DNA from: Hufsiella ginkgonis
GTDB taxonomy: Bacteria; Bacteroidota; Bacteroidia; Sphingobacteriales; Sphingobacteriaceae
Assembly (NCBI RefSeq): GCF_009834915.1
Contig: NZ_WVHS01000005.1
Coordinates: forward strand, 62,001-126,000
Direction of reading: 5' to 3'
DNA: 64,000 nt
This document shows positions 10,105 through 31,845 of this stretch, piece after piece. The position numbers were made by a program, and so were the translations under genes. Under the pieces are notes generated by a model. That model did no database searches, was not told the origin of the DNA, and was given only the letters and a program-made list of their open reading frames with translations. Numbering within the stretch: position 1 is the stretch's first letter; each line of letters starts with the position of its first letter.

Positions 10105-10977
10105 TTACGCGTTCGATGGGGCGCCGTCGAAATGCCTGATAGTTTCTACCGTGTTCTGGATGTTCGCTTTTGACGAAGCGCCAAACAGGATCGATTCGAT
10201 ATTGGGAAGCTCACAAACATATTCAAGGGCTTCTTTAGGAGCGATGGCGCCGCCGCCCAGTACCTGCATGGCAATTGCACGGAGCTTGCGGTTCTTCAGC
10301 GTTTCTTCGTAGATCTCTTTTCCGCCCGACATACGGAAGCCTACCTTATTGATTGATGAGCAGATGATGGGGTTTTCGATACCCTGCGATTCCAGCGCAT
10401 CCAGCAGCTTAGGCATGTTCATGGTAATAAAACCAGCTTCTGCATTGTGCTTCCTTTTCACATAGTGATAGAAGGCCGCAAGCACTTCGTAAGCGCGAAG
10501 ACCCAGGAGCAGGTCGGTGATCACGTTCTGCAGGAAAATAACGGGAGTATTAATTCCCCTGAACATCTTCATTTCCGAATCCACCAGCAGCTCCATGATA
10601 GAAAGGTAGTCTTTTGACAAAAAAGCCATCCCGCCTTTAAACATCGACCCGATGAAGTTACCCGGTACATATTGTTTCAGCGTGCCCGCGATCCCAAGCT
10701 CGGTTACGGCGTTGGCATATTTATGTGCGTAGGGCATGCAGGGAAAAATTTTAAAGTCCCTGTATTTTTCAGGCTCCTGGCGAATGATCGCGCAGATATT
10801 GGCAATACGGTCATGCGTGGTGCACATAAACGTGTTTACGCCCAGCGACCTCGCGTCATCCAACGTTTTAACGATGGCGCTATCTTCCCGGAATTTGATC
10901 GACTGTGCGCGGGATTTCTCGTCTGATATATGGTTAACGGCAAAAAATTGGTTATCCCCAAAAAGAATTCTTTCCAT
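10105..10977 (-). CDS. Predicted TIM-barrel protein, aldo/keto-reductase-like
   Basis: A 290-residue soluble protein that I cannot assign to a named enzyme. Its end, IESILFGASSKANIQNTVETI, resembles the NADP-phosphate-binding end of aldo/keto reductases (VLVGARS..Q). Alternating hydrophobic strands and helices fit an (alpha/beta)8 barrel, but the AKR catalytic Tyr/Lys/His set is not obvious. The opening ERILFGDNQFFAVNHISDEKS and the block GVNTFMCTTHDRI look like conserved pocket segments. It starts six bases after the Gfo/Idh/MocA gene and shares its unit with a GT26 gene. Modification of a sugar or sugar nucleotide is therefore likely; that role is inferred from context only. Confidence 0.6.
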   Translation of the reverse strand: MERILFGDNQFFAVNHISDEKSRAQSIKFREDSAIVKTLDDARSLGVNTFMCTTHDRIANICAIIRQEPEKYRDFKIFPCMPYAHKYANAVTELGIAGTLKQYVPGNFIGSMFKGGMAFLSKDYLSIMELLVDSEMKMFRGINTPVIFLQNVITDLLLGLRAYEVLAAFYHYVKRKHNAEAGFITMNMPKLLDALESQGIENPIICSSINKVGFRMSGGKEIYEETLKNRKLRAIAMQVLGGGAIAPKEALEYVCELPNIESILFGASSKANIQNTVETIRHFDGAPSNA

Positions 10978-10983
10978 GCTTCC

Positions 10984-11994
10984 TTAATTAACGCTTTGTT
11001 TGATGAGTTCGATGGCCTTGTCGGTATACCAGGCGCTCTGAAATGTATTGATCGTATTGGGCACTTTCCCGGCAACGGCATCGACGAAATAATCAAGCTG
11101 CGCGGAATATTCCTCGCCGCGGAGGTAAAAGTCGACCTGCGGGGTGAGGTCGGTAATGTACTTCACCGTCCAGCCTTTGTTGTAGCCTGCGGGTGTTCCG
11201 GCATCTTTAAAGTATACCTTCAGTTCGTTGGCATCAGAAATGATCTTTCCTTTGGTGCCCTCGATGGTTACCGAGGTTGTCATTTTACGGTGTGTTTCAT
11301 CGCTCCAGTTTACCGAAAGCACGCCGCTCACGTTGTTCTGCAGCTCCACCAGCGAATAAACGGCATCCTCTACCGTGGTAGAATAGATGGATTTAAGTAA
11401 ACTTCCCTTTACGCTTTTCACCGGGGCCAGGATATCGTTAATCAGGTCGATCACGTGCGAGGCGTAATCCAGGAGGCAGCCACCGCCTTCTTTGGGGTCG
11501 GAGCGCCAGGTATCCTGTTTAGGGCGGATCACCACCGGGCCATAAGATTCGGCCACGAAATGGTATACCTGGCCCAGGGCGCCTTCTTTGATCAGTCTTT
11601 TCACTTCCCCGAAGGTGCCGATAAACTTGTTGTGGTAGCCGATCTGGTTCACTACCTTTTTTTGCGCGGCCAGCTTCACCAGCTCTTCACCCTGTGTTGC
11701 GGTAAGGCAAAACGGTTTTTCAGCAAAAATATGTACGCCGCTTTCCAGGAGGTCCTTAATCATCGAGTAGTGGAATTTTGTTGGCACAGCCACCACAACT
11801 GCGTCTGGCTTTACGTCGGCCAGCATTTTCTTGTAGTCGGTAAAACAAGTGAATTTGCCATACCGGCTTAAAAAGTCGTTGACCATTTTTGAGGTGTCGC
11901 AAACGCCAACTACCTCTACATTCGGATGAGCGCCAAGGATGGAGAGATGGGAGATCCCCATTTTTCCGGCACCGATTATACCAACTTTAACCAT
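10984..11994 (-). CDS. Gfo/Idh/MocA family NAD(P)-dependent oxidoreductase
   Basis: A 336-residue enzyme with an N-terminal Rossmann domain (VGIIGAGKMGISH, glycines 8, 10 and 13), the family signature AEKPF (Glu92-Lys93-Pro94) in which the lysine is catalytic, and the second-domain motif LLDYASHVIDL (Asp177, His180). Family members oxidise or reduce sugar hydroxyls; in surface-glycan loci they often work on UDP- or dTDP-sugars (WlbA, 3-keto formation). Its start overlaps the upstream GT26 gene by eight bases, and the TIM-barrel gene follows six bases after its stop. The three likely work on one sugar. No aminotransferase is nearby, so amino-sugar formation is not supported here. Confidence 0.88.
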   Translation of the reverse strand: MVKVGIIGAGKMGISHLSILGAHPNVEVVGVCDTSKMVNDFLSRYGKFTCFTDYKKMLADVKPDAVVVAVPTKFHYSMIKDLLESGVHIFAEKPFCLTATQGEELVKLAAQKKVVNQIGYHNKFIGTFGEVKRLIKEGALGQVYHFVAESYGPVVIRPKQDTWRSDPKEGGGCLLDYASHVIDLINDILAPVKSVKGSLLKSIYSTTVEDAVYSLVELQNNVSGVLSVNWSDETHRKMTTSVTIEGTKGKIISDANELKVYFKDAGTPAGYNKGWTVKYITDLTPQVDFYLRGEEYSAQLDYFVDAVAGKVPNTINTFQSAWYTDKAIELIKQSVN

Positions 11995-12730
11995 GTTTCT
12001 TGAGTCGTAAAAAAATTAATAGAACATCTGAAAAAAACTTCATTTGATTGCCAATATTTCTCCTGAATACCTCCGGCCGGTGAAAGATACGGATAAACCA
12101 TCCCAATCTGATCTTGAACCAGAACGGATGGATAACTTTTTGAGTGCCTGCAAACCAGTCGAATACGTTGCCGATGCAGATAGTAAGGCAGGGAGGTAAG
12201 CTTTCGCGATGCTGGATGGACCATTTCTCCTGTTTCGGGCAGGTCATCCCTACAAAAAGAATGTCTGGTTTAAACGCTTGTATGGCCTCCACCATGGCGG
12301 CGTTATCCGCCTCGCTAAATTCGGGCTTAAACGGCGGAGAATATGTTTCCACTTCGATATCCGGGTATTCACGCGCTGCGCGTTCTTTAATGAGGCTGAG
12401 GGTCTTTTCGGAGGATCCGAGAAAGAATGCTTTTCCGCCGGTGCGGTTCAGCTCATTGATAAAATGATCGAATACATCGGGCCCCTGGTTGCGCGGAATA
12501 TTTTTACCCTGCAGTAAGATCGGCGCAATAGCGAAATAAACTCCGTCAAGAACAAGATAATCGCTCGTTTGAAGCGCCTTTTTAAATTCCCTGTCTTTCG
12601 TGGCTATCCCATAAGAATTCGGACTGATAGTGTTTATAACCCGGCATCTTACTCCCTTAACGGGTATCAACGCCAGATCATCCGAATAAACCCTAAAACC
12701 AATAGAATCCAAAAATTTCGGCTCACCCAT
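11987..12730 (-). CDS. WecG/TagA/CpsF family glycosyltransferase (GT26)
   Basis: A 247-residue protein with the GT26 layout: LVLDGVYFAIA (the catalytic-Asp region), IPRNQGPDVFDHF, GKAFFLGSS, DILFVGMTCPKQEKW and an ending of GNVFDWFAGTQK..HPFW..LGWFIRI..RPEVFRR. Family members (TagA, WecG) add ManNAc, ManNAcA or a similar sugar to the first GlcNAc-PP-undecaprenol, the second step of chain assembly. The protein acts at the inner membrane face. A TATCTTTG motif lies about 70 bases upstream of the ATG, and the gene leads a three-gene unit with the oxidoreductase and the TIM-barrel protein. The family is clear; its donor may be a modified sugar made by those two partners. Confidence 0.87.
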   Translation of the reverse strand: MGEPKFLDSIGFRVYSDDLALIPVKGVRCRVINTISPNSYGIATKDREFKKALQTSDYLVLDGVYFAIAPILLQGKNIPRNQGPDVFDHFINELNRTGGKAFFLGSSEKTLSLIKERAAREYPDIEVETYSPPFKPEFSEADNAAMVEAIQAFKPDILFVGMTCPKQEKWSIQHRESLPPCLTICIGNVFDWFAGTQKVIHPFWFKIRLGWFIRIFHRPEVFRRNIGNQMKFFSDVLLIFLRLKKHG

Positions 12731-12798
12731 TGAAAAAATTCACTAGTAACTAACTAAATGATCCACTGCACCCGCAATAGGGCTTTTATATTTCGGAT

Positions 12799-12806
12799 CA
12801 AAGATA
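12799..12806 (-). promoter_or_regulatory. Candidate Bacteroidota -7 element TATCTTTG
   Basis: The reverse strand reads TATCTTTG, an exact match to TAnnTTTG, 68 bases before the GT26 start. A run giving TTTTTTTG lies 13 bases further upstream, shorter than the usual 19-21 spacing to a -33 box. The only other gene start nearby faces away, so if this is real it drives the GT26-oxidoreductase-TIM unit. Confidence 0.4.
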
Positions 12807-12873
12807 ACTCGATAAATTGCAAAAAAAGGAATCAATTGCTGATTTTATTGAGGATTTACAAATAAAGTTCGGA

Positions 12874-13764
12874 TTATTTTTCGAGCATTAAGGCCGATAT
12901 AGAAAGGGGCGATACGGAACGCATCCTGCTCTCGCAAATCCACCCGTTCTTACTAAAAGGCTGATGGATAATTTTCGTACGCTCCCAGGTAGTTAGCCTC
13001 AATAAAAAATTTGAAAGCATTCCGTTTCCGAACCAGCGATAAAGTAACGGCAGTGGCTTGCATTTCGCAGAGGCCCTTTGCACCTCTGCCATGTATTTGT
13101 TCTTTAATATCTGTGAACGGCTCGTGGTCCGCAGGCGAAAGGCAGATAACGGCAAAGCCAGTGTCCACAGATCCGCGTGACATGCAAACCGCATCCACAA
13201 CTCATAATCGGCCGCCAGCTGATAGTCCATATCTAACCCGCCCGCATTCCGCCACAATTCTTTCCGCCAAAACATCGACTCCTGCTGCAAATACCCATAC
13301 CCGCCTTGCTTATACCACCCGTTCCTGATCGCCTTAGTCGGCTTGGCGGACACATTCGTATAGATTTTTTTCAAAGATCCGTCTTCATTTAAAAAGGCAG
13401 GGATCCCGGTAAGCCACGAAACCTCCTGATGATCTTTAAAAATTTTGGCAACCGTGCGCAACGACCACGGGAATGAGACGTCGTCGGCGTTTAACCAGCA
13501 AAAAATATCCCCTGTGGCGAAATTAAAGCCCTTTTGAATGGCATCGTACTGCCCCTTATCTTTTTCTGAAATGAATTTGGCGATGTATTTATGATATCGC
13601 CCGACGATCTCGAGTGTACGATCGGTGGATCCACCATCAACTACGACTAGTTCGAGGTTAGGATAGTCCTGTTGGGTGATACTCTTGAGTGTCTCTTCTA
13701 TGTAGGATTCCATGTTAAAGCACGGAACGACTACGGAGATTTTCGGCAATGAAGGTAACGTCAT
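12874..13764 (-). CDS. GT2 glycosyltransferase at the end of the sugar-acid operon
   Basis: A 296-residue GT-A enzyme: ISVVVPCFNMESYI, VVDGGSTDRT (residues 42-50), KGQYDAIQKG, then the metal-binding NADD (92-95) and the acceptor-side stretch GYGYLQQESMFWRKELW. This KGQYDAxxKG subtype is widespread in Bacteroidota glycan loci. It is the last gene of the compact - strand run that begins at 20420, and its ATG lies one base after a possible 75-codon frame. It probably adds a sugar next to the acid built by that operon. The donor is unknown. Confidence 0.87.
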   Translation of the reverse strand: MTLPSLPKISVVVPCFNMESYIEETLKSITQQDYPNLELVVVDGGSTDRTLEIVGRYHKYIAKFISEKDKGQYDAIQKGFNFATGDIFCWLNADDVSFPWSLRTVAKIFKDHQEVSWLTGIPAFLNEDGSLKKIYTNVSAKPTKAIRNGWYKQGGYGYLQQESMFWRKELWRNAGGLDMDYQLAADYELWMRFACHADLWTLALPLSAFRLRTTSRSQILKNKYMAEVQRASAKCKPLPLLYRWFGNGMLSNFLLRLTTWERTKIIHQPFSKNGWICESRMRSVSPLSISALMLEK

Positions 13765-13765
13765 G

Positions 13766-13993
13766 CTATCCAGATAAACGTTTCAGTTGTAACATAATTA
13801 TCGCGCCCGGTATCAGTTTGGGGTAAATACGGCAAAACGCCTTCATCAACGTATATAAACCCAAACGATTCATTTTTATAATCATAAAATGCTTTCCGGG
13901 ATGGCATAACCGGGTTATTATCATACATACAACTAATTTAAATTCCCTGGCGGTTATCTCATTATTTAAATGACGGGATTTCCTCTTCTGCAA
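13766..13993 (-). CDS. Doubtful 75-codon frame between two operon genes
   Basis: A frame of 75 residues starting at TTG fills almost the entire 241-base gap between the GT42-like gene and the terminal GT2 gene, ending one base before the GT2 ATG. The product would be basic with a moderately hydrophobic second half (LGLYTLMKAF and IPGAIIMLQL), and resembles nothing I recognise. Translational coupling to the GT2 gene would explain the placement. It could equally be a degraded remnant or an untranslated spacer, because the DNA is A+T-rich and stops are rare by chance over this length. Confidence 0.25.
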   Translation of the reverse strand: MQKRKSRHLNNEITAREFKLVVCMIITRLCHPGKHFMIIKMNRLGLYTLMKAFCRIYPKLIPGAIIMLQLKRLSG

Positions 13994-14005
13994 GCCATAA
14001 AAGCA

Positions 14006-15280
14006 CTACCTGTTATAATCGTCCGTTTTAATACCTGTGAGTGCGGGAATAAAAGAAGGTGTGATGGTGTGATAATCTTTACCCCGGTCGCGGCCAAATT
14101 GTAAAAGCTCTTCTACCGTTTTACAGTGTTGATCATAGTACTCCGTGTATACCCTGTCGCGGAAAAAAGACGGATGGGTTTGAAAAGCGGTTTCCATAAG
14201 ATCACCAAACTGTGCCGACTTACTATGGTTCCAAAAGTAAGACTCGCTCTTATTCCTTCCATCCGCCCCGAATATATAAATAGACGTTGCGAATACGGAG
14301 CTAAGCGGCAACATCAAATTGGTTAACACGTTGCCATTGTCTTTGATAGATAAATTTTCGGCGGAGGGGAAGTTGAATCCCTTTTTAACGTAGTCGATCC
14401 CTATAAAAAGATGTTCCAGCCCTGCCACCTCTTTCAATATCAAAGGCAGCGCTTTGATCGGCACAAAAACATAACAATGATATTTTTTCACTATTTTCAC
14501 CATTTGCTCCCTGAAACTTGCAGCATATTTACTGGGTCCAAAGTGAAACACAGGATCGGCAAAGGCCAGGATGTCAGCCCCACCTACGTATTCCAGGAAT
14601 TCTTCGTTTTTAACCACGCTATTGCAAATGATTTTCAGATCGAATGACGAAAGATCGTATTGCTTATAAGTATCGAACGAAGGTCCTGTCACAAAGCACA
14701 CGGCAGAATTTTTTGTGCCCAGGTCTTTCGACATTTGTTTGAAATTAGCAAGCGAAAATTCCCGGTAATAGGTCACCTGGTCTGACGACATTGCATTAAA
14801 AAAAAGATTTTGCCATGTAATCGACTCTACGTAAGAAAAGAAATAGGGATCTACAATTTCGATTTTACCGATATTTTTAAGCACGTTCAGGTTGAAGATG
14901 TCGCGAAAATGAGTGAGCAGGATTATTGATGAGTTCGTTAAGAGCACCTTCACTTCAGGATCGTTCACCAACTTAACTTTCGGAGCATTCGGAGGAGGAG
15001 CCACCTCGCTCAGATAGGGTGAGGGCTTCGACAACCCGTAAACAGCATCGCAGACCATCACGGTATTCGCCAATTGATCCTCATCCGGAATAAACCAGGT
15101 TAATTTACTTAAATAGTCAGAAAACTCTTCCTGGGAAGAAGTTCTGTATAATACTATTGTCCCCGGCCCCTGGCGCTTTTTAAAAAGAGACTTTACTCCC
15201 CTAAAAATAAGATACACTATCTTTTTAAATAAGATCAGGAACAGGTTTCTTTTGCCATATGCATTATTCGCTGCACTCAT
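14006..15280 (-). CDS. GT42/DUF115-like transferase, candidate CMP-sugar-acid transferase
   Basis: A 424-residue protein with a basic N terminus of about 40 residues and a C-terminal half that follows the landmark order of the Campylobacter sialyltransferases Cst-I/Cst-II (GT42) and the related DUF115 fold. These are a GPS loop (199-201, FVTGPSFDTY), an Asn in ICNS (220), AFADPVFHF (about 239-247), IFGADG (337-341), a candidate catalytic His (369, THPSFF) and a closing ITPS (406-409). Cst enzymes use CMP-Neu5Ac. A CMP-sugar cytidylyltransferase lies in the same operon, so transfer of a CMP-activated sugar acid is a reasonable inference. Alternatively it is a DUF115 protein of another role. 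The N-terminal 190 residues match nothing I know. Confidence 0.6.
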   Translation of the reverse strand: MSAANNAYGKRNLFLILFKKIVYLIFRGVKSLFKKRQGPGTIVLYRTSSQEEFSDYLSKLTWFIPDEDQLANTVMVCDAVYGLSKPSPYLSEVAPPPNAPKVKLVNDPEVKVLLTNSSIILLTHFRDIFNLNVLKNIGKIEIVDPYFFSYVESITWQNLFFNAMSSDQVTYYREFSLANFKQMSKDLGTKNSAVCFVTGPSFDTYKQYDLSSFDLKIICNSVVKNEEFLEYVGGADILAFADPVFHFGPSKYAASFREQMVKIVKKYHCYVFVPIKALPLILKEVAGLEHLFIGIDYVKKGFNFPSAENLSIKDNGNVLTNLMLPLSSVFATSIYIFGADGRNKSESYFWNHSKSAQFGDLMETAFQTHPSFFRDRVYTEYYDQHCKTVEELLQFGRDRGKDYHTITPSFIPALTGIKTDDYNR

Positions 15281-15305
15281 AACGGATCAGTCAGGTTATA
15301 GAACT

Positions 15306-16250
15306 TTATTTACCGGCACTTATTAGGTCGAGCAAGTTGTTAACGGCGAAAGTGCCCTGCCTGATAACGCTTTCATAACTTCTTGAACTAATGTGTGGTG
15401 TAATTAATACGTTAGGCCAATCTTTCATGGGGTAATCCTTGGGCATTGGCTCGATATCGAGTACGTCGGCAAGGTAGCCGGCAATTATATTATTCTCAAG
15501 TCCGTATTTAATAGCATCAAGGTTTACCAGCTTTCCCCGTGCCGTGTTGATAATGATCGTACCGGGCTTAAGCGACTCTTTAACCAGCTTTTCCCCGATC
15601 ATCCCCTCGGTCTCAGGGGTATGTGGTACATGTAAAGTAATGATATCCGCCTGGGCCGCGAGCGCTTCGATACTTTCCGCCAGCGATATGTTATTTTCTT
15701 TTATATAAGTGTGGTCAACAAACTTTTCATAAGCGATCACTTCGAGTCCGAAGCCACGTGCGCGTTTTACCATTTCTTTGCCAATGGCGCCTAAGCCAAC
15801 GATCCCCATTTTTTTCCCGTAAATTTCGGTGCTCACATACCGTTTCCACCCGCCGGCCTTAGTGATCGGATATTCCAGGTGAATATTTTTAACGAAAGCA
15901 AGGAGTAATGCGAACGCATGCTCTGCTACCGAATTCTGGTTAACGCTTGGACAGTTAGTAACGGGAATACCTAATTCCCTGGCTTTAGCAAGATTTATGC
16001 GGTCTAATCCTACGCCATATTTAGAGAGATATTTCAATCGTCCGCCTTTTGCTATTTCGAGAATTTCTGCTGTATATTCATCATCACCACAAATAATCGC
16101 ATCATAATTTCCAACCACAGGCCTTAACTCGTCTTCCGTTAGCGGCCCGCGCATCGTATCGATATCAAAACCCTGGCTATACAGCAAATCCTGGTGAGCG
16201 CCAGGAGCGTCCATAAAAGACGTTGAGGTTAGCAAAACTTTAAATTTCAT
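15306..16250 (-). CDS. D-isomer-specific 2-hydroxyacid dehydrogenase
   Basis: A 314-residue NAD-dependent dehydrogenase of the phosphoglycerate dehydrogenase family. The Rossmann loop is VGLGAIGKEM (152-157), and the catalytic set is complete: Arg238 (NTARGKL), Glu267 (LDIEPMP) and His286 (TPHIS). There is no C-terminal ACT domain, so it is the short form. The family interconverts 2-hydroxy and 2-keto acids; here it sits between a HAD phosphatase and a GT42-like transferase in a sugar-acid operon. It could make a keto acid precursor or reduce the keto group of one. Housekeeping SerA is less likely given the context. Confidence 0.85.
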   Translation of the reverse strand: MKFKVLLTSTSFMDAPGAHQDLLYSQGFDIDTMRGPLTEDELRPVVGNYDAIICGDDEYTAEILEIAKGGRLKYLSKYGVGLDRINLAKARELGIPVTNCPSVNQNSVAEHAFALLLAFVKNIHLEYPITKAGGWKRYVSTEIYGKKMGIVGLGAIGKEMVKRARGFGLEVIAYEKFVDHTYIKENNISLAESIEALAAQADIITLHVPHTPETEGMIGEKLVKESLKPGTIIINTARGKLVNLDAIKYGLENNIIAGYLADVLDIEPMPKDYPMKDWPNVLITPHISSRSYESVIRQGTFAVNNLLDLISAGK

Positions 16251-16255
16251 AATAG

Positions 16256-16918
16256 TTATTTATCTGTTACCAATTCTATTTCCGTGAGTACCCGGGGCAG
16301 ATCAAGCATATCATTGATCTCAAATCCGTTATAATCCGCAAATAAATGAGCATTTTCTTCCGTTCGGCGCAGGATGAATACCAGGCCGGATCTTTCCGCG
16401 GCCTCCTGGTCGGCTTTGGCATCCCCGACAAATACCGTTTCCGAGCGCTTTAAATTCTCCTTGTTTATAATGTATTCCGTCCAATGGTATTTTTTTTCCG
16501 GGGAGCCATAGGCATCTTCGAAGTAGCCATTCCAATTCCTTTGTCGGAGGATCGGGCGGATCTCCCCGGTGGGCGTACCGGTAATTATCCAGCAACGGTA
16601 TTTTTTGTGATATGCACTCAGAAAATCGACGGCTCCTGCGACCTGGGGCGCATTAACTACGCCGTCCAACGCCAGGTCCGAAAACCTGCCCGCCCATTCA
16701 TTCACCTCGTCATCCGATATATCAAGTTTCAAAAATTCCTTATGATAATACCTGATTTTATCGTACCTGGATACTCCCCCGTTGGCTAAATGATATTCAA
16801 CCACTTTATCTGCTATATCGTCACCGGCGTGCCGGTATAAATTCCGGAAGGCCTCAGTTTTTACATTGACTGACTCGGCGAGCACTCCATCAAAGTCGAA
16901 AAAAATATTCTTAATCAT
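16256..16918 (-). CDS. HAD-superfamily sugar phosphatase
   Basis: A 220-residue HAD hydrolase with a helical cap (about residues 15-85). Motif I is FFDFDGVLAES (nucleophile Asp8, acid Asp10), motif II is the Thr in IITGTPT, motif III is the Lys in SPEKKYHW, and motif IV is VFVGDAKADQEAA. All catalytic residues are present. The cap type matches the phosphoglycolate phosphatase/beta-phosphoglucomutase group; it is not KdsC-like, since KdsC lacks such a cap. It lies five bases from its neighbours on each side. A role removing phosphate from a phosphorylated sugar acid, before CMP activation, would fit the operon; this is inferred. Confidence 0.85.
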   Translation of the reverse strand: MIKNIFFDFDGVLAESVNVKTEAFRNLYRHAGDDIADKVVEYHLANGGVSRYDKIRYYHKEFLKLDISDDEVNEWAGRFSDLALDGVVNAPQVAGAVDFLSAYHKKYRCWIITGTPTGEIRPILRQRNWNGYFEDAYGSPEKKYHWTEYIINKENLKRSETVFVGDAKADQEAAERSGLVFILRRTEENAHLFADYNGFEINDMLDLPRVLTEIELVTDK

Positions 16919-16922
16919 ATAC

Positions 16923-17618
16923 CTAATAATAAATCCAGGTCTTGTCGTTCTTTCCCTTCAGGGCTTCTTCAATAGGGTAACCTGTATTACCGCATACAAG
17001 CTGCATCAATAGCTTTTTTTTCTCGTCGCCATTAATAAGAACCAGTATCATACGCGCATTGCGTAATACCGGGAATGTCAGGCTCATTCTTGTCGCTGAA
17101 AGCTGAGGGACTTCATTTATAACGACCAGCTCATTAGTTTGCTGTAACGCCTTAGTTCCCGGGAACAGGGAAGCCGTATGCCCATCGTTGCCCATACCGA
17201 GTATGATCAGGTCAAATGCGGGGAGATCGTCTTCGCCTGCAAGCGAACTTATCAGTGCCGAATATTTTTTTGCCGAGAGCGCTGCACCTTCGGCGTGATG
17301 ATACATCGGATAAAAAGAAGAGGGCAATTCTCCAATGACCTGCAGGGCGCTCCAATAATTACTATCCGGATGTTTATCGGGCACGATGCGTTCGTCGACC
17401 CAGCAGAAGCATACCCGCTCCCATTGGTCATTATCCAGGTAGTTACCGGATACCAGTTCTTTAAAAACCATGCCTGGCGTATTTCCACCGGAGATTGCCA
17501 GCACGGCACGCTCCTTAACGGCTAATGTGTTCAAAAGAGCTTCCGCAATAAAGCTTGCAGAAACCAGTACCCATTCTTCCCGGTTCTCGGTCCGGATAAG
17601 CTTACCTAGCGTATTCAA
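16923..17618 (-). CDS. 6-phosphogluconolactonase-like protein (SOL/NagB fold)
   Basis: A 231-residue protein with the family motifs LAISGGNTPGMVFKEL (residues 41-56), CFCWVDERIVPDKHPDSNY, and LIILGMGNDGHTASLFPGT, the last being a strong 6-phosphogluconolactonase signature. The family hydrolyses phospho-sugar lactones. No glucose-6-phosphate dehydrogenase or gluconate dehydrogenase gene accompanies it, unlike housekeeping pgl, so this may be a copy recruited to a sugar-acid pathway. It starts at TTG, overlapping the upstream SDR stop as TTGA; there is no nearby in-frame ATG. Function on 6-phosphogluconolactone itself cannot be excluded. Confidence 0.82.
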   Translation of the reverse strand: MNTLGKLIRTENREEWVLVSASFIAEALLNTLAVKERAVLAISGGNTPGMVFKELVSGNYLDNDQWERVCFCWVDERIVPDKHPDSNYWSALQVIGELPSSFYPMYHHAEGAALSAKKYSALISSLAGEDDLPAFDLIILGMGNDGHTASLFPGTKALQQTNELVVINEVPQLSATRMSLTFPVLRNARMILVLINGDEKKKLLMQLVCGNTGYPIEEALKGKNDKTWIYY

Positions 17619-18499
17619 ATAGTTGGATTATTTCGATAAACCTCTTTTATACATTCCAATATACCTTGCCCCATGTCGATATGGGGATTGGCAATAAGCT
17701 TTTTGCTGATTGTAGGTGCGTAAGAATATGGCGTGAAACGATAATGATGATGGTATTCTCCGCTTTTAAGATTGATACTGACCTTATTACCTAAAATTTC
17801 ATTAATTATTTCGAACAACTCGATCCGCCGTAATTTCTCTGTTCCGGTAAAGATTACATGTTCATTTTTATACTCATCATTTTCGATAATATCGACAGTC
17901 AGCTTTGCCGCATCTGAAGCATGGATATATTCCCTGATCTCGTTTCCATCTCCTCCATGATCTATCCTGCCTGTTGTGACGGCTTTTTCCACCAGGTTAT
18001 AAATATAATTATTATCATAACTCATTTCCGAGTAAACAGATCCGTAGCGTAAAATGGTGAAAGAAAGATCAAATCTGACAGAATATTCCTCGACGATTTT
18101 TTCCGAAGTCAATTTACTGATCCCATAAAAAGACCCTTTATCGCTCATTGCATACGCGCTGCTGGCATACACAAACCGCTGTATACCAGTTTTTACGCAT
18201 GCTTCAAGGATATTGATATTGCCAAGCACGTTAAGCTCCATGGTACGGTACGGATACTTAGTCGACTGATCGAGGTTAGCAAACCCGGCTAAATTTATAA
18301 CGATATCAAATCCTCCCCCGCTAATTTCATCCGACACGCTGACAGCGTCCATTATATCTATATGCTTAAATCGTAGTTCCGGGAACTGTCTCCTTGGCGG
18401 ACTCAGGTCATAAACACTAACGGTATGCGCTCTTCGTCTCAATTCCTCAACGAGGTAAAGACCCAAAAAACCACTACCTCCGAAAATTGCAACATTCAT
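17615..18499 (-). CDS. Extended SDR sugar epimerase/dehydratase
   Basis: A 294-residue extended short-chain dehydrogenase/reductase. The NAD(P) loop is IFGGSGFLG (residues 5-13), Asp31 after the second strand suggests NAD(H), YASSA (111-115) holds the active-site Ser, and YGISK gives Tyr125/Lys129. The C-terminal half resembles nucleotide-sugar epimerases (REYIHASDAAKLTVDII). The substrate could be a nucleotide sugar or a free sugar acid or phosphate. It begins one base after the aldolase gene and overlaps the lactonase gene by four bases, so it is part of the operon. Which carbon it acts on cannot be told. Confidence 0.83.
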   Translation of the reverse strand: MNVAIFGGSGFLGLYLVEELRRRAHTVSVYDLSPPRRQFPELRFKHIDIMDAVSVSDEISGGGFDIVINLAGFANLDQSTKYPYRTMELNVLGNINILEACVKTGIQRFVYASSAYAMSDKGSFYGISKLTSEKIVEEYSVRFDLSFTILRYGSVYSEMSYDNNYIYNLVEKAVTTGRIDHGGDGNEIREYIHASDAAKLTVDIIENDEYKNEHVIFTGTEKLRRIELFEIINEILGNKVSINLKSGEYHHHYRFTPYSYAPTISKKLIANPHIDMGQGILECIKEVYRNNPTI

Positions 18500-18500
18500 A

Positions 18501-19292
18501 TTATTCCTGCCTTACTGCGTCCTTCAACGATTTCATTTCATCTCTTGCCTTATCGCCGAGGAAAAAGAAATCGATACTAAATGCCAGGAAGGTATATCCT
18601 GCATTAAATTTATCTACTGTTTTTTGGTGATCGGAAGAGATCACATGAAAACCGAGCGGCTTCTTTAATCGCTTCGCTATTTCTTCTACTTTGCTGAGCG
18701 CTTCGGCTACGTCGGGGTGCTCATAATTGCCGGGCATACCCATCGAAGCTGAAAGATCATATGGGCCAATGATAATTCCATCGATGCCCTCCACGGCTAA
18801 AATAGATTCCAGGTTATTAACAGAATCGATATGCTCGATCTGCGCAATTACAACGGCTTCATTTTCCAGCCAATCCTGGTATTCCTGGAAACCTGTGCCG
18901 TAATTTTGCGCCCGGTTTAAGCCAACCCCACGTTTTCCTTTTGGCGGATATTTAACAAAATCGACGGCCTGTCTGGCTTCTTCGGCATTCCGGACCGTTG
19001 GCACGATCACGCCATCTGCGCCGGCATCCAACATCCGTTTTATGATCACTTCTTCGTTCTTACTCACCCGCACAAGTGCTTTCATGCCTTTTCCCTGGAT
19101 AAGCGCGATCATATTCATCGCCTGGGAGATGTCGATCGCCGCGTGTTCAAGATCGAGTGTGAGCCATTCAAACCCTGCTGTGGCTAAAATCTCTACAACA
19201 GACTGGTGCGGTATTGTCAACCATGAACCGATAGTAAGCTCACGGCTCGCTAATTTTTTTTTGAGGGACCAGTCAGGCGAAATATTTTTCAT
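18501..19292 (-). CDS. HpcH/HpaI family aldolase (pyruvate-dependent class II)
   Basis: A 263-residue TIM-barrel aldolase. Family landmarks are GSWLTIPHQSVVEILATAGFEW, LDLEHAAID (catalytic His50), LVRVS (Arg75), GVIVPTVRNAEEA, QIEHIDSVNN (metal ligand Glu153) and IIGPYDLSASMG (metal ligand Asp179). Known members reversibly join pyruvate to aldehydes, giving 4-hydroxy-2-keto acids (HpaI, GarL, RhmA). Inside an operon with a CMP-sugar cytidylyltransferase it is a candidate for making the 2-keto-3-deoxy acid skeleton, the step NeuB or KdsA normally performs with PEP. Its ATG lies 20 bases inside the YhcH-like gene. Retro-aldol breakdown is the alternative. Confidence 0.88.
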   Translation of the reverse strand: MKNISPDWSLKKKLASRELTIGSWLTIPHQSVVEILATAGFEWLTLDLEHAAIDISQAMNMIALIQGKGMKALVRVSKNEEVIIKRMLDAGADGVIVPTVRNAEEARQAVDFVKYPPKGKRGVGLNRAQNYGTGFQEYQDWLENEAVVIAQIEHIDSVNNLESILAVEGIDGIIIGPYDLSASMGMPGNYEHPDVAEALSKVEEIAKRLKKPLGFHVISSDHQKTVDKFNAGYTFLAFSIDFFFLGDKARDEMKSLKDAVRQE

Positions 19293-19743
19293 ATATCTTA
19301 ATTACGATTTTATTCACTTCAAGCACTTCGCCGGCCGGGTTTAATGCAGCCAGGTGCGCATCTTCCGGGAAGAACACGGCGAAATAACCGGGCTTTAGCA
19401 TCACCGTTCCCAGGTGCGCGTCTTCGTGCGGATAAAAGAATTCGCAGTCGGAATGTGACGAGTAGGCGGTCCGGGTGGTAAGCTTAGGTCTGTCATAAAC
19501 TTCAATCCGTTCGGTGCCCTGCAGTAAAAACTGGATATCTACATACTGGTTATGCGCCTCAACCATGTTATTATTGTCGTGGCTGGTTTCATACCTCAAT
19601 ATCTTTGCATAGACTTCTTCACCGTTCAAAGGTTTCTCCCCGGTTTCGTGCAAATGTTGTGCAGTAGCTAAAAATGCACTGATAAGCTCAACTGCTTCTG
19701 GCTTGAGCGCCCTGTATAGCTGGTCAATTTTTCCGTAAATCAT
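19273..19743 (-). CDS. YhcH/YjgK/YiaL (DUF386) family protein
   Basis: A 156-residue single-domain beta-barrel (cupin-like) protein. The diagnostic segments are EAHNQYVDIQFLLQGTERI (about residues 61-79) and AVFFPEDAHLAAL, which carry the His, Glu and Asp residues that bind metal in the family. E. coli yhcH is the last gene of the nanATEK-yhcH sialic-acid operon, and family members are suspected sugar isomerases or anomerases acting on sugar acids. Here it sits between the cytidylyltransferase and the aldolase and overlaps the latter by 20 bases. A role in presenting the right ring form of a keto-sugar acid is plausible but unproven. Confidence 0.85.
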   Translation of the reverse strand: MIYGKIDQLYRALKPEAVELISAFLATAQHLHETGEKPLNGEEVYAKILRYETSHDNNNMVEAHNQYVDIQFLLQGTERIEVYDRPKLTTRTAYSSHSDCEFFYPHEDAHLGTVMLKPGYFAVFFPEDAHLAALNPAGEVLEVNKIVIKIYEKYFA

Positions 19744-19745
19744 TA

Positions 19746-20420
19746 TCAGGCGTTTTCCGTCAATATTTTGTACAGTCCCTCAGCAATGATAAAATCCTGC
19801 GGCTCATCAATGTCTACGGCTTCCAGCTTATCAATGGGGTACATGAGTGGTTTAATCCCTATACGTTTCCCATCCGCCTCTTTAAAGGATTGCTTCGTGA
19901 AAATGTAAAAATTCGAATTGTCTTCGAATACCGGGGGCAGGTCTTGTGTACGAAGTAATTCTTTAGGGTTGTGATTTACCGGCCGGCCGTCTTCCCAATA
20001 AAACCTGGTTTGAAACCGTGTTACGGAAAATACGGAATCACATGCTTCACTCGCCAGAAAAGTCTCTAATGCCTTATCAACTGTCGCTATTTTAAGTAAA
20101 GGGCTCGTACTATGGGTTTGTATATATACATCCCCATCCGTTTGGGACATATCATAGCCAATAATGTCGTTCATGGGAACAAAATCGCCCTGGATCTCAA
20201 CGGGCCTATCGACGATTTTTACTGAAGGAAAATTGGCGTTAACATCTTTCTTTATGTTTTCGCTATCTGTATTAATTACGATCTCGCTGATCAGTTTCGA
20301 TTTTAACAGTTCTTTAACCACCACATGATAAAGTGGCTGGCCATTAAATAAGCGTAAGTTTTTATTTTTAACTCGCTCAGAATTTCCCTTCATGGGAACA
20401 AGAGCAATAATTTTTTTCAT
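19746..20420 (-). CDS. CMP-sugar-acid cytidylyltransferase (NeuA/KdsB superfamily)
   Basis: A 224-residue nucleotidyltransferase. The N-terminal CTP loop reads ALVPMKGNSERVKNKNLRLF, which is the (R/K)xxSxRxxxKN signature of acylneuraminate cytidylyltransferases. It is followed by IVINTDSENI, a DVYIQTHSTSPLL segment (the donor-pocket strand) and VDIDEPQDF near the end, where the Asp residues bind Mg2+. The family activates 2-keto-3-deoxy acids such as Neu5Ac, legionaminate, pseudaminate and Kdo as CMP sugars. The length matches the catalytic domain alone. It is the first gene of the operon, and no NeuB homolog is present, so the acid it activates is an open question. Confidence 0.85.
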   Translation of the reverse strand: MKKIIALVPMKGNSERVKNKNLRLFNGQPLYHVVVKELLKSKLISEIVINTDSENIKKDVNANFPSVKIVDRPVEIQGDFVPMNDIIGYDMSQTDGDVYIQTHSTSPLLKIATVDKALETFLASEACDSVFSVTRFQTRFYWEDGRPVNHNPKELLRTQDLPPVFEDNSNFYIFTKQSFKEADGKRIGIKPLMYPIDKLEAVDIDEPQDFIIAEGLYKILTENA

Positions 20421-20512
20421 CTATTAACTAATATGTAATTATGTAATTTGCAATGCAGCAGCTCGTTAAATATTATAAATATAAGAAAAAAACGGCTTTT
20501 TCATTAATTAAG

Positions 20513-20520
20513 CAAATATA
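20513..20520 (-). promoter_or_regulatory. Candidate -7 element TATATTTG of the sugar-acid operon
   Basis: The reverse strand reads TATATTTG, an exact match to TAnnTTTG, 93 bases before the cytidylyltransferase ATG and in very A+T-rich DNA. No clear -33 TTG was found. A hairpin just upstream (20597-20630) supports a transcription boundary here. Confidence 0.4.
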
Positions 20521-20596
20521 AGCACAGTTTTGGTATTAGCGAAAAGAAGGAGAATTTGCGGAGGAAGATCGCTTTAAAATTTACGAAAATCGCCTG

Positions 20597-20630
20597 GGCC
20601 TCCACCGTATAGAGGCACGTTCCGGAGGTC
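20597..20630 (-). terminator. Possible terminator hairpin after the GT2 gene
   Basis: GGCCTCC (20597-20603) pairs with GGAGGTC (20624-20630), one pair being a G-T wobble, seven bases past the GT2 stop codon. On the reverse strand GATTTTCG follows the stem, a poor T-tract. It may separate the 20.6-31.6 kb genes from the sugar-acid operon. Confidence 0.35.
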
Positions 20631-20634
20631 ACAC

Positions 20635-21525
20635 CTATTTCATTTTCGAGAGGTAATAATTCAGGTGTCTTGCCATGTCACACGCGAAGAACACAAAACG
20701 CTGAACCAGGTTCTCTGAGTGGCTTCTAGCATAATAATAACGGTACTTCCAGTAAGAAGAACTGCGAAAGTCGAAGAATCTTGCTTTAAAATCTTTAAGC
20801 GTGTAATTTTTCTTTATATCTATCCCACTGGTTGTTTCCGGGTTAATGTATACAAGTGCTTTATAAGTAACCAAAAGTGGAAAGCCTGCCCGACGCGCTC
20901 TGACTGGTAACTCGGTATCGCCACGATGTTTGAAGTGTTTAAAATCATAAAGACCAACTTTACGGATCACTTCAACCGGTAAAAAAACCCCGCGGCCAAT
21001 CAGGTCAGAAGACGATGTGAGGGTGTTTATATCAACGTCCGACAGCTTCTTTGATGCATTGTACATGGTAGTCTTTGCGCTCCACGGATGCATGAATTTG
21101 CCTCCGTACAAAATGATGTCCCTCGCGTTTACATCTGCTGCAGCACAACCGATCAGCGCTCCGGGATTATCCCGGATCACATCGTAAAAATTCTCAAGCC
21201 AATCCTCGTCAACCAACACATCATCGTTTTGGAGTATCAACCCGTGAAGACGGTCTTTAAAATGCTCCATTGCAAAGCGAATCCCGGCATTTACCGACCC
21301 AGTCCACCACTGGTTTCCTTCTGTACGTACCACATGTACTTTAGGGTAGTTGGAATTTATCCACTCCGAGCTACCGTCGGTGGACGCATCATCAACTACT
21401 ACCAATTCAAACTCGGCTATGCCCCTGCCATTTACCCGGGTAACCGCCTGGTAGATGGCGGCTAAGCCTTTTTTTGTAATTTCAATCCTGTTGTAGATGG
21501 GAATAATAACTGCAATTATGTTCAT
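20635..21525 (-). CDS. GT2 glycosyltransferase, rhamnosyltransferase-like
   Basis: A 296-residue GT-A enzyme: AVIIPIYNRIEIT, LVVVDDASTDGS (41-52), a GNQWWTGSVNAGI loop and the metal-binding NDD at 100-102 (LILQNDDVLVDEDWL). The WWTG-N and NDD pattern is the same branch as the gene at 5564 (WbbL-like). Conserved ELPVRARRAG in the second half would contact the acceptor. It is the last gene of a chain of co-directional genes, ending in a possible hairpin. It likely adds one sugar, perhaps a deoxyhexose, in the repeat unit containing the 3,6-dideoxyhexose; the donor is not determined by sequence. Confidence 0.85.
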   Translation of the reverse strand: MNIIAVIIPIYNRIEITKKGLAAIYQAVTRVNGRGIAEFELVVVDDASTDGSSEWINSNYPKVHVVRTEGNQWWTGSVNAGIRFAMEHFKDRLHGLILQNDDVLVDEDWLENFYDVIRDNPGALIGCAAADVNARDIILYGGKFMHPWSAKTTMYNASKKLSDVDINTLTSSSDLIGRGVFLPVEVIRKVGLYDFKHFKHRGDTELPVRARRAGFPLLVTYKALVYINPETTSGIDIKKNYTLKDFKARFFDFRSSSYWKYRYYYARSHSENLVQRFVFFACDMARHLNYYLSKMK

Positions 21526-21529
21526 GCAT

Positions 21530-22693
21530 CTATTTACTTATCTCTGTATTCGGCCTGCAATTCACAATAGTCGTAATAAAATAGTCTTCAAACGCGCTCA
21601 TCTTCAGAATCTCCATTTTTCCTTCAGTCGTACTCCGGCCGGTATCAAAATGTTTTAACAGGTGGGTTAAATCACCCACGTCGTTATAAATAAACAGGCC
21701 GTCCAGGTTATAATAGCTTCGGGCTGACCCGGGATCTACCACGAGCGGAATGCCGGATAACATAAATTCAATTACCTTGGTAAGCACGCCCGACGAAGGT
21801 TGGTTGTAAAGTACTACTCCCTTACACCCGGCAAGTTTTTGCTGAAGGACCTCATTGCTGAGCGTCCCCAAAATATTAAAATTCGCCAGGCCGGAATACT
21901 CAGCGTTAAAGCGCTCAGTTCCATAACCGGCGAGGTCGATCACCACTTCACCTAAGCGCCCTTCGAGGTTATCAATTAACTTCTTCATCCCCAAATAGGT
22001 AGGCAGGTTAGTTGCCGTACCTATTAATAAAAAATTTCCCGTGGACCGCCTTTTTTTCCTGATCTCTTCAAAGTAATTTACCACTTCTGTTACCGGATAA
22101 TATGGCAGATAGTGTGCCTTTACACCATGTAAATTAAGAAGCCACTCTTCCTCTCTCGCGATTGCAAAGGTGTGTAAAGCGGTCGACTTTAACATCTTCA
22201 TTTCATTGGGAAGCCAGGCTGGTGCCGTCTTACTATGTAAAAAGCTCTTGCGACCGGGGACAAGTGATTCTAAATTATGCGGGATAGCAAAAACCGGCAG
22301 TTTGTGTTTCTTCAACAGGAACGCAAGCAGAAAGAACCGATCATAAGTGCTCTCCCATATAAAAGCATGGTAATTATTTTTCAGCATTGGTTTCACGCTG
22401 GTTACGAAATAGCGGTAACTAAACCCGATAAATAATATCTCCTGCGGAAATGGTTTTATAAAAATCCTTGCCTCGATGCAGAATTTCACGAAATACAAGG
22501 CGTATAACGGCGCTCTTAATAACTTATAGATCGTCGGCTTGGAGTCTGAATGTTCCCAGTTAAGGCTATCTAAAATAAATCCGCGTCGTTGGAGCAGTTC
22601 TACAACCTGGGCTGTCCGTCGTTCTCCACCATGTCCAAATGGCTTTGCCTTAAATGGAGAGTGATGAAGAATACGTAATCCTTTTTCCTGCAT
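21530..22693 (-). CDS. GT-B glycosyltransferase (GT4-like)
   Basis: A 387-residue protein starting at the ATG at 22693. A TTG at 22726 would add 11 residues and leave only one base after the Wzx stop, so the start is not certain. The N-terminal half has GHGGERRTAQVVELLQRRG, a glycine-rich acceptor loop, and the middle has IPHNLESLVPG. In the C-terminal half, FLLIGTATNLPTYLG, LAGYGTERF and SGVLTKVIEFMLSGIPLVV match the donor-site region of GT4 enzymes, with Glu in KVIEFM in place of a full EX7E. It lies between a Wzx and a GT2 gene. The donor is unknown. Confidence 0.78.
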   Translation of the reverse strand: MQEKGLRILHHSPFKAKPFGHGGERRTAQVVELLQRRGFILDSLNWEHSDSKPTIYKLLRAPLYALYFVKFCIEARIFIKPFPQEILFIGFSYRYFVTSVKPMLKNNYHAFIWESTYDRFFLLAFLLKKHKLPVFAIPHNLESLVPGRKSFLHSKTAPAWLPNEMKMLKSTALHTFAIAREEEWLLNLHGVKAHYLPYYPVTEVVNYFEEIRKKRRSTGNFLLIGTATNLPTYLGMKKLIDNLEGRLGEVVIDLAGYGTERFNAEYSGLANFNILGTLSNEVLQQKLAGCKGVVLYNQPSSGVLTKVIEFMLSGIPLVVDPGSARSYYNLDGLFIYNDVGDLTHLLKHFDTGRSTTEGKMEILKMSAFEDYFITTIVNCRPNTEISK

Positions 22694-22727
22694 TTTCTTA
22701 TAACTGTATTGAAGGGGACTTAACAAA

Positions 22728-24149
22728 TTACGGCTTTACCAAACTGTATTTACGCCATGATACATAGCCACCTACCGTTAGGATAGCGATGAACATTAAT
22801 ATCTTTATGCCCATCTGCATGCCCGTAACCGAGATGGATATGGCATAAGCAACGGCAAAGAACGCGCTTAATTTCATAAAGAACATGATTGATAATTCAT
22901 TTTTTAGATACCGGTAAACAGCGAGCACGCTGAAGAAGAACGTAAGCACCGTCGAACCCAGGAACGCAGCAGATAAATACTCAGCGCCATATTGAGATCC
23001 ATACCATAAAATGGGCACCTGTAACATTGCACATAAAATGGATAGATAGCTTAATTCACGTTGCCTGTTAATTGCCCCTAATAAGGTACCGATTAAACAT
23101 ACCAGGGCGTAAAGCGCCATGTACCAGCACTGATAACCTAGTACCAGGCCGGTGTTTACATATTTTTCTCCGTAAATAAACAATACGATCTCCTTAAGGA
23201 AAAAAGTAACCCCGAACGCGCCTACTACGCCGATTAGAGACATAATAATGAAAATATTCTTGGTACGCCTGATAAAGGACTGCCTGTCTGAAACGAATAA
23301 GGACGATAAATTGGGGAACAGGGAAACCAACGCCGTATTAAGGACCAAGCTAAGCGGTGAAAGCACCCTGTTGGCGATATTGTAATAAGCAACTTGTGCC
23401 AGGCCAGCCCTATGTTCGAGAAATAACACCGGGATTTGATTACTAAGTAAGGTTAACAAGGCCAGGTAGTAATAGGGCATCGATTCCCTGGCGATGTGGC
23501 GGGCATCGCTCCTGAGATGCTGCATGTTGCTTTCCCCGGTAAAATACTTGAACCGGTACACCGAATAGATATATATAGCCGTTTTAGCGAAGTTCAGCAT
23601 CGCAAAAACGCCAAACAGGATATTCAAAGTCATGTAATGCGCCGGCATTACCAGGATGATGATAACCCAAAAAACGTTATTGGCCAGGCTTATCACGCCT
23701 GTAAACTCCATTTTTTCGAGGCCAAATGCTACGCCTTCGATTAGCTCGTAGAGGGCCGAAATCACGATACTAAAAAAAGTTAACGCAAATAATAAGCCGC
23801 CGTAATCTTTATTGAAAAAATAATAACTGGTGTACAAAATCAGCGCAGCTATTATACCGAAGGATCGGACCGTTAGCGAGGATATGAACACCTTTTTCGA
23901 ATTTTCTTTATCCCGTGCAATCGTCCGGACTACAATATTTTTGAGTCCCAAAGATGCAACCACCACAAAAATAGTGACATGAAGCTGCAGCAAGTTATAT
24001 GATCCATAGGTGTCGGTAGACAGGTATCTCGCAATCTTGATACTGGTAAGTATGCTTAAAACCTGGGATATAATATTACTGGCCGTAAGAATGGAGAAAT
24101 TTCTAAAAAAAGTACTGTTCCTAAAGGACTTCATTGCAGAGATCTTCAT
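22728..24149 (-). CDS. Polysaccharide flippase, Wzx/MOP family
   Basis: A 473-residue membrane protein with about 12-14 hydrophobic segments. Its opening, FSILTASNIISQVLSILTSIKIARYL then TYGSYNLLQ, is the standard start of Wzx/RfbX-type proteins (the RYLS.D.YG motif). It flips the undecaprenyl-diphosphate-linked unit built by neighbouring transferases to the periplasm. The gene overlaps the upstream GT2 by four bases and is followed one base later by a GT-B frame, placing it firmly in the operon carrying the dideoxyhexose genes. It is full-length, unlike the flippase cut by the left edge. Confidence 0.9.
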   Translation of the reverse strand: MKISAMKSFRNSTFFRNFSILTASNIISQVLSILTSIKIARYLSTDTYGSYNLLQLHVTIFVVVASLGLKNIVVRTIARDKENSKKVFISSLTVRSFGIIAALILYTSYYFFNKDYGGLLFALTFFSIVISALYELIEGVAFGLEKMEFTGVISLANNVFWVIIILVMPAHYMTLNILFGVFAMLNFAKTAIYIYSVYRFKYFTGESNMQHLRSDARHIARESMPYYYLALLTLLSNQIPVLFLEHRAGLAQVAYYNIANRVLSPLSLVLNTALVSLFPNLSSLFVSDRQSFIRRTKNIFIIMSLIGVVGAFGVTFFLKEIVLFIYGEKYVNTGLVLGYQCWYMALYALVCLIGTLLGAINRQRELSYLSILCAMLQVPILWYGSQYGAEYLSAAFLGSTVLTFFFSVLAVYRYLKNELSIMFFMKLSAFFAVAYAISISVTGMQMGIKILMFIAILTVGGYVSWRKYSLVKP

Positions 24150-25171: not shown

Positions 25172-25172
25172 A

Positions 25173-26405: not shown

Positions 26406-26464
26406 ATCTGCCTTCTCATTTTCGTGAAACTAATCCTCACCACAATTATCCGCGAGCCCGGAAT

Positions 26465-27331: not shown

Positions 27332-27371
27332 TGGTGCCGACCGGGATTACGTAAAAAATTAATACAATTAG

Positions 27372-28673: not shown

Positions 28674-28712
28674 TTGATAATAGTTATTCAGCCAGCTAAG
28701 TGGCAGGCATAT

Positions 28713-29792: not shown

Positions 29793-29793
29793 A

Positions 29794-30564: not shown

Positions 30565-30591
30565 ATATAAATTAATTTGTGTGACAAAAGA

Positions 30592-31632: not shown

Positions 31633-31763
31633 CTGCGATAGACATTATTAAGACCACAATAATAATAAAAAATTTCAAATTAATAGCGGCATTTCTTGTT
31701 AAGAAATTAAAAATATAACTTCTTTTTTGCGAATTAAATCACGGCGAAGCCAAGTCACCAAAT

Positions 31764-31799
31764 AAAAATGACAGAAGCAACGAGTTTGTGCTTCTGTCA
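31764..31799 (-). terminator. Intrinsic terminator of the wza-wzc unit
   Basis: A perfect 11-bp stem, TGACAGAAGCA (31769-31779) with TGCTTCTGTCA (31789-31799), encloses a nine-base loop. Read on the reverse strand it is followed at once by TTTTTATTT. It lies 47 bases past the wzc stop, so it ends wza-wzc and separates it from the dideoxyhexose operon, which therefore needs its own promoter in 31633-31763. Confidence 0.88.
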
Positions 31800-31845
31800 G
31801 TATTAACCACTTTAGCGCTTAAACAGCACCTTTTATTAAAGGATA

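Follow-up and report, generated by a model that had tools for sequence, protein, structure and literature searches.

A cluster of nine minus-strand genes in Hufsiella ginkgonis, at positions 12874-20420 of a 64,000-nucleotide stretch of contig NZ_WVHS01000005.1 (the whole stretch analysed, hereafter the window), probably directs both the synthesis and the transfer of a sugar acid resembling sialic acid, and does so without the synthase class of the described pathways, which on its gene content makes it a promising candidate for a new route. To our knowledge, all known pathways to ulosonic acids activated with cytidine monophosphate (CMP) start with a phosphoenolpyruvate (PEP)-dependent synthase, either NeuB or KdsA. 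We put at roughly 0.55 the probability that the product of the operon is a non-aminated 2-ulosonic acid that is closed by an aldolase, activated with CMP and transferred to a surface polysaccharide. Gene content, conservation, the absence of NeuB, retained catalytic residues and the fold of a putative transferase are the observations behind this reading. At slightly under even odds, and hence more tentatively, the HpcH/HpaI-type aldolase may be the anabolic synthase of the acid, an evolutionary replacement for NeuB or KdsA that is spread over about 12 phyla, with a reduced version in phages.

The coordinates of all nine genes agree with those of the first-pass annotation, and Pfam and NCBIfam searches confirmed the families of all except the GT42-like protein. 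Seven genes, from the cytidylyltransferase to the hydroxyacid dehydrogenase, either overlap or lie no more than 5 bases apart. The conserved unit covers 15306-20420, often with an added GT42/MptE-type transferase, and the GT2 gene at 12874-13764 lies outside the unit that could be demonstrated. Only the phosphogluconolactonase-type protein passes an equivalog-type cut-off. The cytidylyltransferase, aldolase, hydroxyacid dehydrogenase and YhcH-like protein score well under their nearest curated equivalogs, in keeping with substrate specificities that are new.

The same gene set recurs in other genomes. One-per-species genomes were scanned with an alignment of the cytidylyltransferase, and the best 80 loci among 534 relatives were analysed, so that the frequencies given here are no census; profiles derived from these loci served to score partner genes on the same strand up to 7 kb away. 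Carriers are often incomplete metagenome bins, several gene absences are contig ends, and some phylum assignments may be wrong. The aldolase gene accompanies the cytidylyltransferase gene in 53 of the 80 loci, which also hold the hydroxyacid dehydrogenase (48), the short-chain dehydrogenase (SDR; 47), the HAD-family phosphatase (44), a PF04199 cyclase (31), the YhcH-like gene (13) and the phosphogluconolactonase (12). A lactonase-type enzyme, either phosphogluconolactonase or cyclase, is present in 43 of the 53, and the two never occur together (naive p = 2.4e-6 under independence, a value that is overstated since related species are not independent). The order cytidylyltransferase-aldolase-SDR-lactonase-HAD-hydroxyacid dehydrogenase was found in 19 loci, mostly of Bacteroidota; the hydroxyacid dehydrogenase instead follows the aldolase in 10 loci, mostly of Campylobacterota and Desulfobacterota (cytidylyltransferase-aldolase-hydroxyacid dehydrogenase-SDR-lactonase-HAD), and the cytidylyltransferase comes last in four loci of Bdellovibrionota (aldolase-SDR-lactonase-HAD-hydroxyacid dehydrogenase-cytidylyltransferase). 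Further orders also occur. Carriers named in the aldolase tree span about 12 NCBI phyla, and this conservation together with the several gene orders rules out a chance local assembly of genes. An Acuticoccus plasmid (NZ_CP094833) carries aldolase, cytidylyltransferase, hydroxyacid dehydrogenase, HAD and SDR genes in that order on one strand; this operon and about 50 other loci are annotated by domain names only, without a pathway. Among the relatives of the window the cytidylyltransferase is patchy, with any match at 1e-15 in 9 of 150, as expected for a mobile polysaccharide gene set. No enzyme-enzyme fusion that could hint at the order of steps was found in the related loci, which hold only GT2-MptE and GT2-GT42 fusions; the GT2-MptE fusions fit a glycosyltransferase role for the GT42-like protein.

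NeuB very probably does not supply the carbon skeleton in H. ginkgonis. Its absence, first noted for the window, extends to the whole host genome (5.2 Mb, 25 contigs, 99.99% complete), where the NeuB model PF03102 has no match; the same model matches 9 of 14 control genomes. The expectation that NeuB would be consistently absent from carriers of the gene set held for the neighbourhood of the module, with no NeuB gene within 7 kb in any of the 53 aldolase-containing loci, and failed for whole genomes. Of 44 carriers, 27 encode a full-length NeuB at some genomic site and 11 give no match; the matches in the other six are weak and partial (E 1e-12 or worse), such as related synthases produce. Since 17 of the 44 carriers thus have no NeuB or only a weak match, the module is independent of it. 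KdsA does not complete the pathway from outside the window either. KdsA and KdsB of the host both lie on contig C12, away from the operon, and the operon cytidylyltransferase scores 23 bits against the kdsB model (cut-off 155), compared with 231 bits for the true KdsB on C12. No NeuC, PseB/C or LegB/C-type precursor gene was found in the conserved set by Pfam and NCBIfam, a result that holds for this set since no genome-wide search was made.

The aldolase (18501-19292, 263 residues, 20-base overlap with the YhcH-like gene) belongs to the class II pyruvate aldolases of the HpcH/HpaI family (PF03328, E 1e-38) and is the only protein of that family found in the host genome. It stays under the equivalog cut-offs for HpaI (192 vs 369 bits), GarL (183 vs 407) and RhmA (146 vs 441). 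In a tree of 96 rows, a branch with 100/99 support splits the operon and viral aldolases from Escherichia coli GarL and RhmA and Agrobacterium HpaI, and ungrouped relatives sit between the two sides. The metal ligands, the catalytic His, an Arg and the active-site Glu and Asp are kept in the bacterial and viral operon aldolases; we take the assignment of the substrate-contacting residues to be that of the HpaI structures. PF03328 and the catalytic residues are common to the operon and catabolic enzymes, and the operon family differs in its tree position, its anabolic context and its motifs, with GPYDLS and FHVI in place of GP(S/A)DLA and ILAP-like residues. This separation from the catabolic enzymes supports the first-pass interpretation; its plain route from pyruvate and an aldehyde falls short, leaving the hydroxyacid dehydrogenase, which is almost always present, the SDR and the lactonase unexplained. 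More distant Bacteroidota aldolases (L155-L165) likewise have hydroxyacid dehydrogenase, HAD and SDR genes as neighbours, together with a cytidylyltransferase-like gene that has diverged, and the wider aldolase family may hold further variants.

Activation with CMP is suggested by the cytidylyltransferase (19746-20420, 224 residues), a NeuA/PseF-type protein with a PF02348 match at E 2.7e-25. Its best NCBIfam match is PseF, under the cut-off (95 vs 206 bits), and its solved relatives are CMP-Neu5Ac synthetases. The DID motif and the N-terminal PMKg.SERv..KN motif are conserved in 48 sequences. The YhcH/NanQ-like anomerase (19273-19743, 156 residues, 2 bases from the cytidylyltransferase gene; PF04074, E 7e-31) passes the cut-off of TIGR00022, the broader YhcH family, and reaches 95 bits against the N-acetylneuraminate anomerase model NF040884 (NanQ; cut-off 160). 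The HAD-family phosphatase (16256-16918, 220 residues, gap of 4 bases; PF00702/PF13419), for which we propose a KdsC-like role, keeps its DFDGV and GDa..D motifs in 47 sequences.

The GT42-like protein (14006-15280, 424 residues, gap of 25 bases) is a candidate CMP-sugar-acid transferase on the strength of its predicted fold. It has no Pfam or NCBIfam match, and a sequence search against solved structures returned none. Its AlphaFold model (pLDDT 79.5, pTM 0.80) matches over residues ~148-424 the flagellin glycosyltransferase Maf (5mu5, Z 12.5), MptE (Z 11.4) and the sialyltransferase CstII with CMP (2x62, Z 10.6). The same region gives Z 9-10 against human GT29 sialyltransferases, and unrelated rows start from 7.1. 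Foldseek alone ranked a Maf flagellin glycosyltransferase first (E 9e-4). The sialyltransferase/Maf-like fold therefore backs the initial GT42/DUF115-like assignment. Homologues of the protein lie beside the module in nine other loci (L023, L034, L037-L039, L043, L054, L057 and L091). A gap of 241 bases separates the GT42-like gene from that of the GT2 glycosyltransferase (12874-13764; PF00535, E 1e-27).

Viral contigs carry a minimal set of aldolase, HAD, cytidylyltransferase and transferase, which supports the idea of a CMP-activated acid. These loci were found in IMG/VR with the cytidylyltransferase alignment; an IMG/VR search with the window aldolase alone gave no match, and annotated phage records gave a single distant cytidylyltransferase match, in Moritella. 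In contigs L100, L101 and L106-L108, a GT29-like gene comes before cytidylyltransferase and aldolase, and after them comes a fusion of a GmhA-like SIS (sugar-phosphate isomerase) domain with a HAD domain. In L112 and L113, cytidylyltransferase, methyltransferase, aldolase and hydroxyacid dehydrogenase stand beside a GT42-like gene, with a HAD gene also in L112. The viral SIS-HAD fusion and cytidylyltransferase parallel KdsD, KdsC and KdsB of the pathway to Kdo (3-deoxy-D-manno-octulosonate), with the aldolase in the place of KdsA. It was also observed that in L100, L101 and L106-L110 a gene of the sialyltransferase family GT29 lies directly before or near the cytidylyltransferase and aldolase genes, amid many glycosyltransferases.

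The remaining conserved genes form a putative oxidative arm. The SDR (17615-18499, 294 residues, gap of 1 base; PF01370, E 2.5e-37) is an extended short-chain dehydrogenase and a candidate sugar or sugar-phosphate oxidase, with the YxxxK and glycine motifs conserved in 46 sequences. The 6-phosphogluconolactonase-type lactonase (16923-17618, 231 residues, TTG start, 4-base overlap with the SDR gene) reaches 162 bits against TIGR01198 (cut-off 124), keeps the DER, DGHTASLFP and R/K lactonase motifs and is the only copy above the cut-off in the host genome. The gene for glucose-6-phosphate dehydrogenase (zwf, TIGR00871) is absent from the host genome and from all 11 lactonase carriers searched. 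Consequently, glucose-6-phosphate dehydrogenase does not make the substrate of this lactonase, and a housekeeping role in the pentose phosphate pathway was rejected. The operon SDR, whose gene almost always adjoins that of the lactonase, is the natural candidate for supplying this substrate; SDR, lactonase and HAD genes are contiguous in most loci. The D-2-hydroxyacid dehydrogenase (15306-16250, 314 residues, gap of 5 bases; PF02826, E 1e-48) resembles phosphoglycerate dehydrogenase (TIGR01327, 214 bits, cut-off 454), and its R, E and H residues occupy conserved sites. The best matches of the hydroxyacid dehydrogenase and SDR are too broad to fix the identity of the sugar.

These genes can be arranged into a working scheme, in which we infer the direction of the aldolase, the order of the steps, the identity of the sugar and the substrates of SDR, lactonase and hydroxyacid dehydrogenase. 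The aldolase would replace the PEP-dependent NeuB or KdsA and join an aldose phosphate with either pyruvate or hydroxypyruvate. A hydroxypyruvate donor, made by the hydroxyacid dehydrogenase from glycerate or phosphoglycerate, would lead to a non-deoxy acid. The HAD phosphatase would then remove the phosphate in a KdsC-like step, the YhcH-like protein may speed anomerisation, the cytidylyltransferase would couple the ulosonic acid to CMP, and the GT42/MptE-fold protein would transfer the activated acid to the surface polysaccharide. SDR, lactonase (phosphogluconolactonase or cyclase) and hydroxyacid dehydrogenase may supply or adjust one building block, our guess being an arm from sugar phosphate through phospho-aldonolactone and phospho-aldonate to a 2-keto acid. 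Consistent with this scheme, the genes most often missing are those of the lactonase and YhcH-like protein, whose reactions, the opening of the lactone and mutarotation, also proceed without an enzyme. The initial proposal that the operon makes and transfers a CMP-ulosonic acid therefore gains support from the type of cytidylyltransferase, the absence of NeuB, the transferase fold and the viral sets, and stays conditional as to which acid is made and in which direction the aldolase works.

Several observations weigh against this scheme. Physiologically, HpaI-family aldolases are described as cleaving their substrates, and the arm of SDR, lactonase and hydroxyacid dehydrogenase has no assigned substrate in it. 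The viral aldolases share only 28-34% identity with the window aldolase and the SIS call is weak (gmhA, E 1.4e-7, under the cut-off), so the viral versions count as support and not as proof. The MptE fold includes a pterin diphosphokinase, so that the fold of the GT42-like protein is no proof of transfer. The strongest limit on the weight given to the aldolase as the sole maker of the backbone comes from 26 loci with the same cytidylyltransferase and no aldolase, which hold the hydroxyacid dehydrogenase (21), a classical SDR (20) and the cyclase (9) and no HAD. With a hydroxyacid dehydrogenase beside the cytidylyltransferase in 21 of 26 such loci, oxidation is a possible source of the keto acid. 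These loci suggest a sister pathway on non-phosphorylated sugars, with the keto acid formed by oxidation. Examples from cyanobacteria, Chloroflexi and Planctomycetes (L069, L071, L074, L076, L083, L084, L094, L095 and others) contain a PF04199 hydrolase, the cytidylyltransferase, a 2-hydroxyacid dehydrogenase, a classical SDR and often a characteristic GT2, and the set has the appearance of another CMP-acid pathway, distinct and so far undescribed. A specific aldose dehydrogenase was considered for the SDR of this group and rejected, the matches being suggestive in one member and unspecific across five more.

An oxidative route through the whole operon is accordingly the alternative that we take most seriously, although we consider it unlikely. 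The SDR would oxidise a sugar phosphate at C1, the lactonase (phosphogluconolactonase or cyclase) open the ring, the HAD protein remove the phosphate and the hydroxyacid dehydrogenase oxidise C2, and the cytidylyltransferase would activate the resulting 2-ketoaldonate, with the aldolase as an accessory, for example in recycling or stereochemical adjustment. The aldolase-free sister group, the contiguity of SDR, lactonase and HAD, the mutual exclusion of phosphogluconolactonase (12 of 53) and cyclase (31 of 53), and a dedicated lactonase that passes its cut-off in genomes lacking zwf all favour this route, and the sister-group SDR has glucose/aldose dehydrogenase models among its closer matches below threshold. 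However, those classical SDR matches are unspecific, and the aldolase is left without a needed role in the 53 of 80 loci that carry it and in viral contigs that lack SDR and lactonase. We regard as improbable that the cytidylyltransferase instead makes a compound linked to cytidine diphosphate (CDP) from a phosphorylated acid or sugar, like the CDP-glucitol of Campylobacter or CDP-glycerol. Unusual units activated with CDP are indeed used in capsule loci, and a cytidylyltransferase paired with an oxidoreductase has been described for CDP-glucitol (PMC10918830). The operon enzyme, though, is of the NeuA/KdsB type (PF02348) with CMP-sialate synthetases as solved relatives, a phosphatase and an anomerase fit a free ulosonate, and the partner transferases are of GT42/MptE and GT29 types.

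The two remaining explanations have very little left to recommend them. An ordinary sialic, legionaminic, pseudaminic or Kdo pathway with its synthase elsewhere in the genome could draw on the full-length NeuB of 27 of the 44 carriers and the KdsA of the host. It is nearly refuted for the host genome itself, which lacks NeuB and whose KdsA is served by its own KdsB on C12, and an ordinary pathway completed by a distant NeuB or KdsA was rejected there; the NeuB-poor carriers and the absence of NeuB near the module also count against it. That a catabolic or salvage operon for Entner-Doudoroff-like or uronate breakdown lies in a polysaccharide locus by chance is hardly credible. The family names of SDR, phosphogluconolactonase and HpaI/GarL-type aldolase do suggest the catabolism of sugar acids, but the association with cytidylyltransferase and glycosyltransferases is constant in about 12 phyla, zwf is missing, and the aldolases stand apart from GarL, RhmA and HpaI.

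The operon lies in a larger polysaccharide locus. The GC content of this locus is 0.42-0.47 (window 12000-32000), compared with mostly 0.50-0.56 beyond ~42 kb (42000-64000), which fits horizontal acquisition; relatives by protein are Chitinophagaceae and other Bacteroidota. Downstream of the operon on the same strand (10105-12730) are aldo/keto-reductase-like, Gfo/Idh-like and WecG/TagA-like genes, with roles read from their open reading frames only. At 27372-30008 on the minus strand lie genes for a DegT/DnrJ aminotransferase-fold protein and a dTDP/CDP-glucose 4,6-dehydratase-like protein; together with a reductase-like open reading frame at 30592-31632, they probably serve the synthesis of a CDP-3,6-dideoxyhexose within the same locus.

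The gene set shares parts with known systems and differs from each of them. A HAD phosphatase and a PF02348 cytidylyltransferase leading to a CMP-ulosonate are common to the operon and the Kdo pathway; the operon lacks the PEP-dependent KdsA and has the HpcH/HpaI aldolase together with SDR, lactonase and hydroxyacid dehydrogenase. With the nonulosonic acid pathways (NeuB-NeuA, legionaminic and pseudaminic) it shares the NeuA/PseF-type cytidylyltransferase, the NanQ-like YhcH protein and the GT42/Maf-fold transferase, whereas its genome has no NeuB and the conserved set has no aminotransferase or acetyltransferase. The nearest published idea is the CDP-glucitol pairing (PMC10918830), whose product is of a different kind. 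We found no paper on the gene set or on an aldolase-based route to a CMP-ulosonate, in a search that did not cover subscription journals and preprints.

Genome surveys take NeuB as the marker of sialic-acid-like sugars. If our reading is correct, a NeuB-less route is widespread and surveys based on NeuB miss producers. The HpaI aldolases would gain a biosynthetic role, and the operon would provide an enzyme set for new acidic sugars. It would also offer a direct target in the search for a surface sugar not yet described, in marine bacteria that are harmless and in culture, among them Polaribacter and Winogradskyella.

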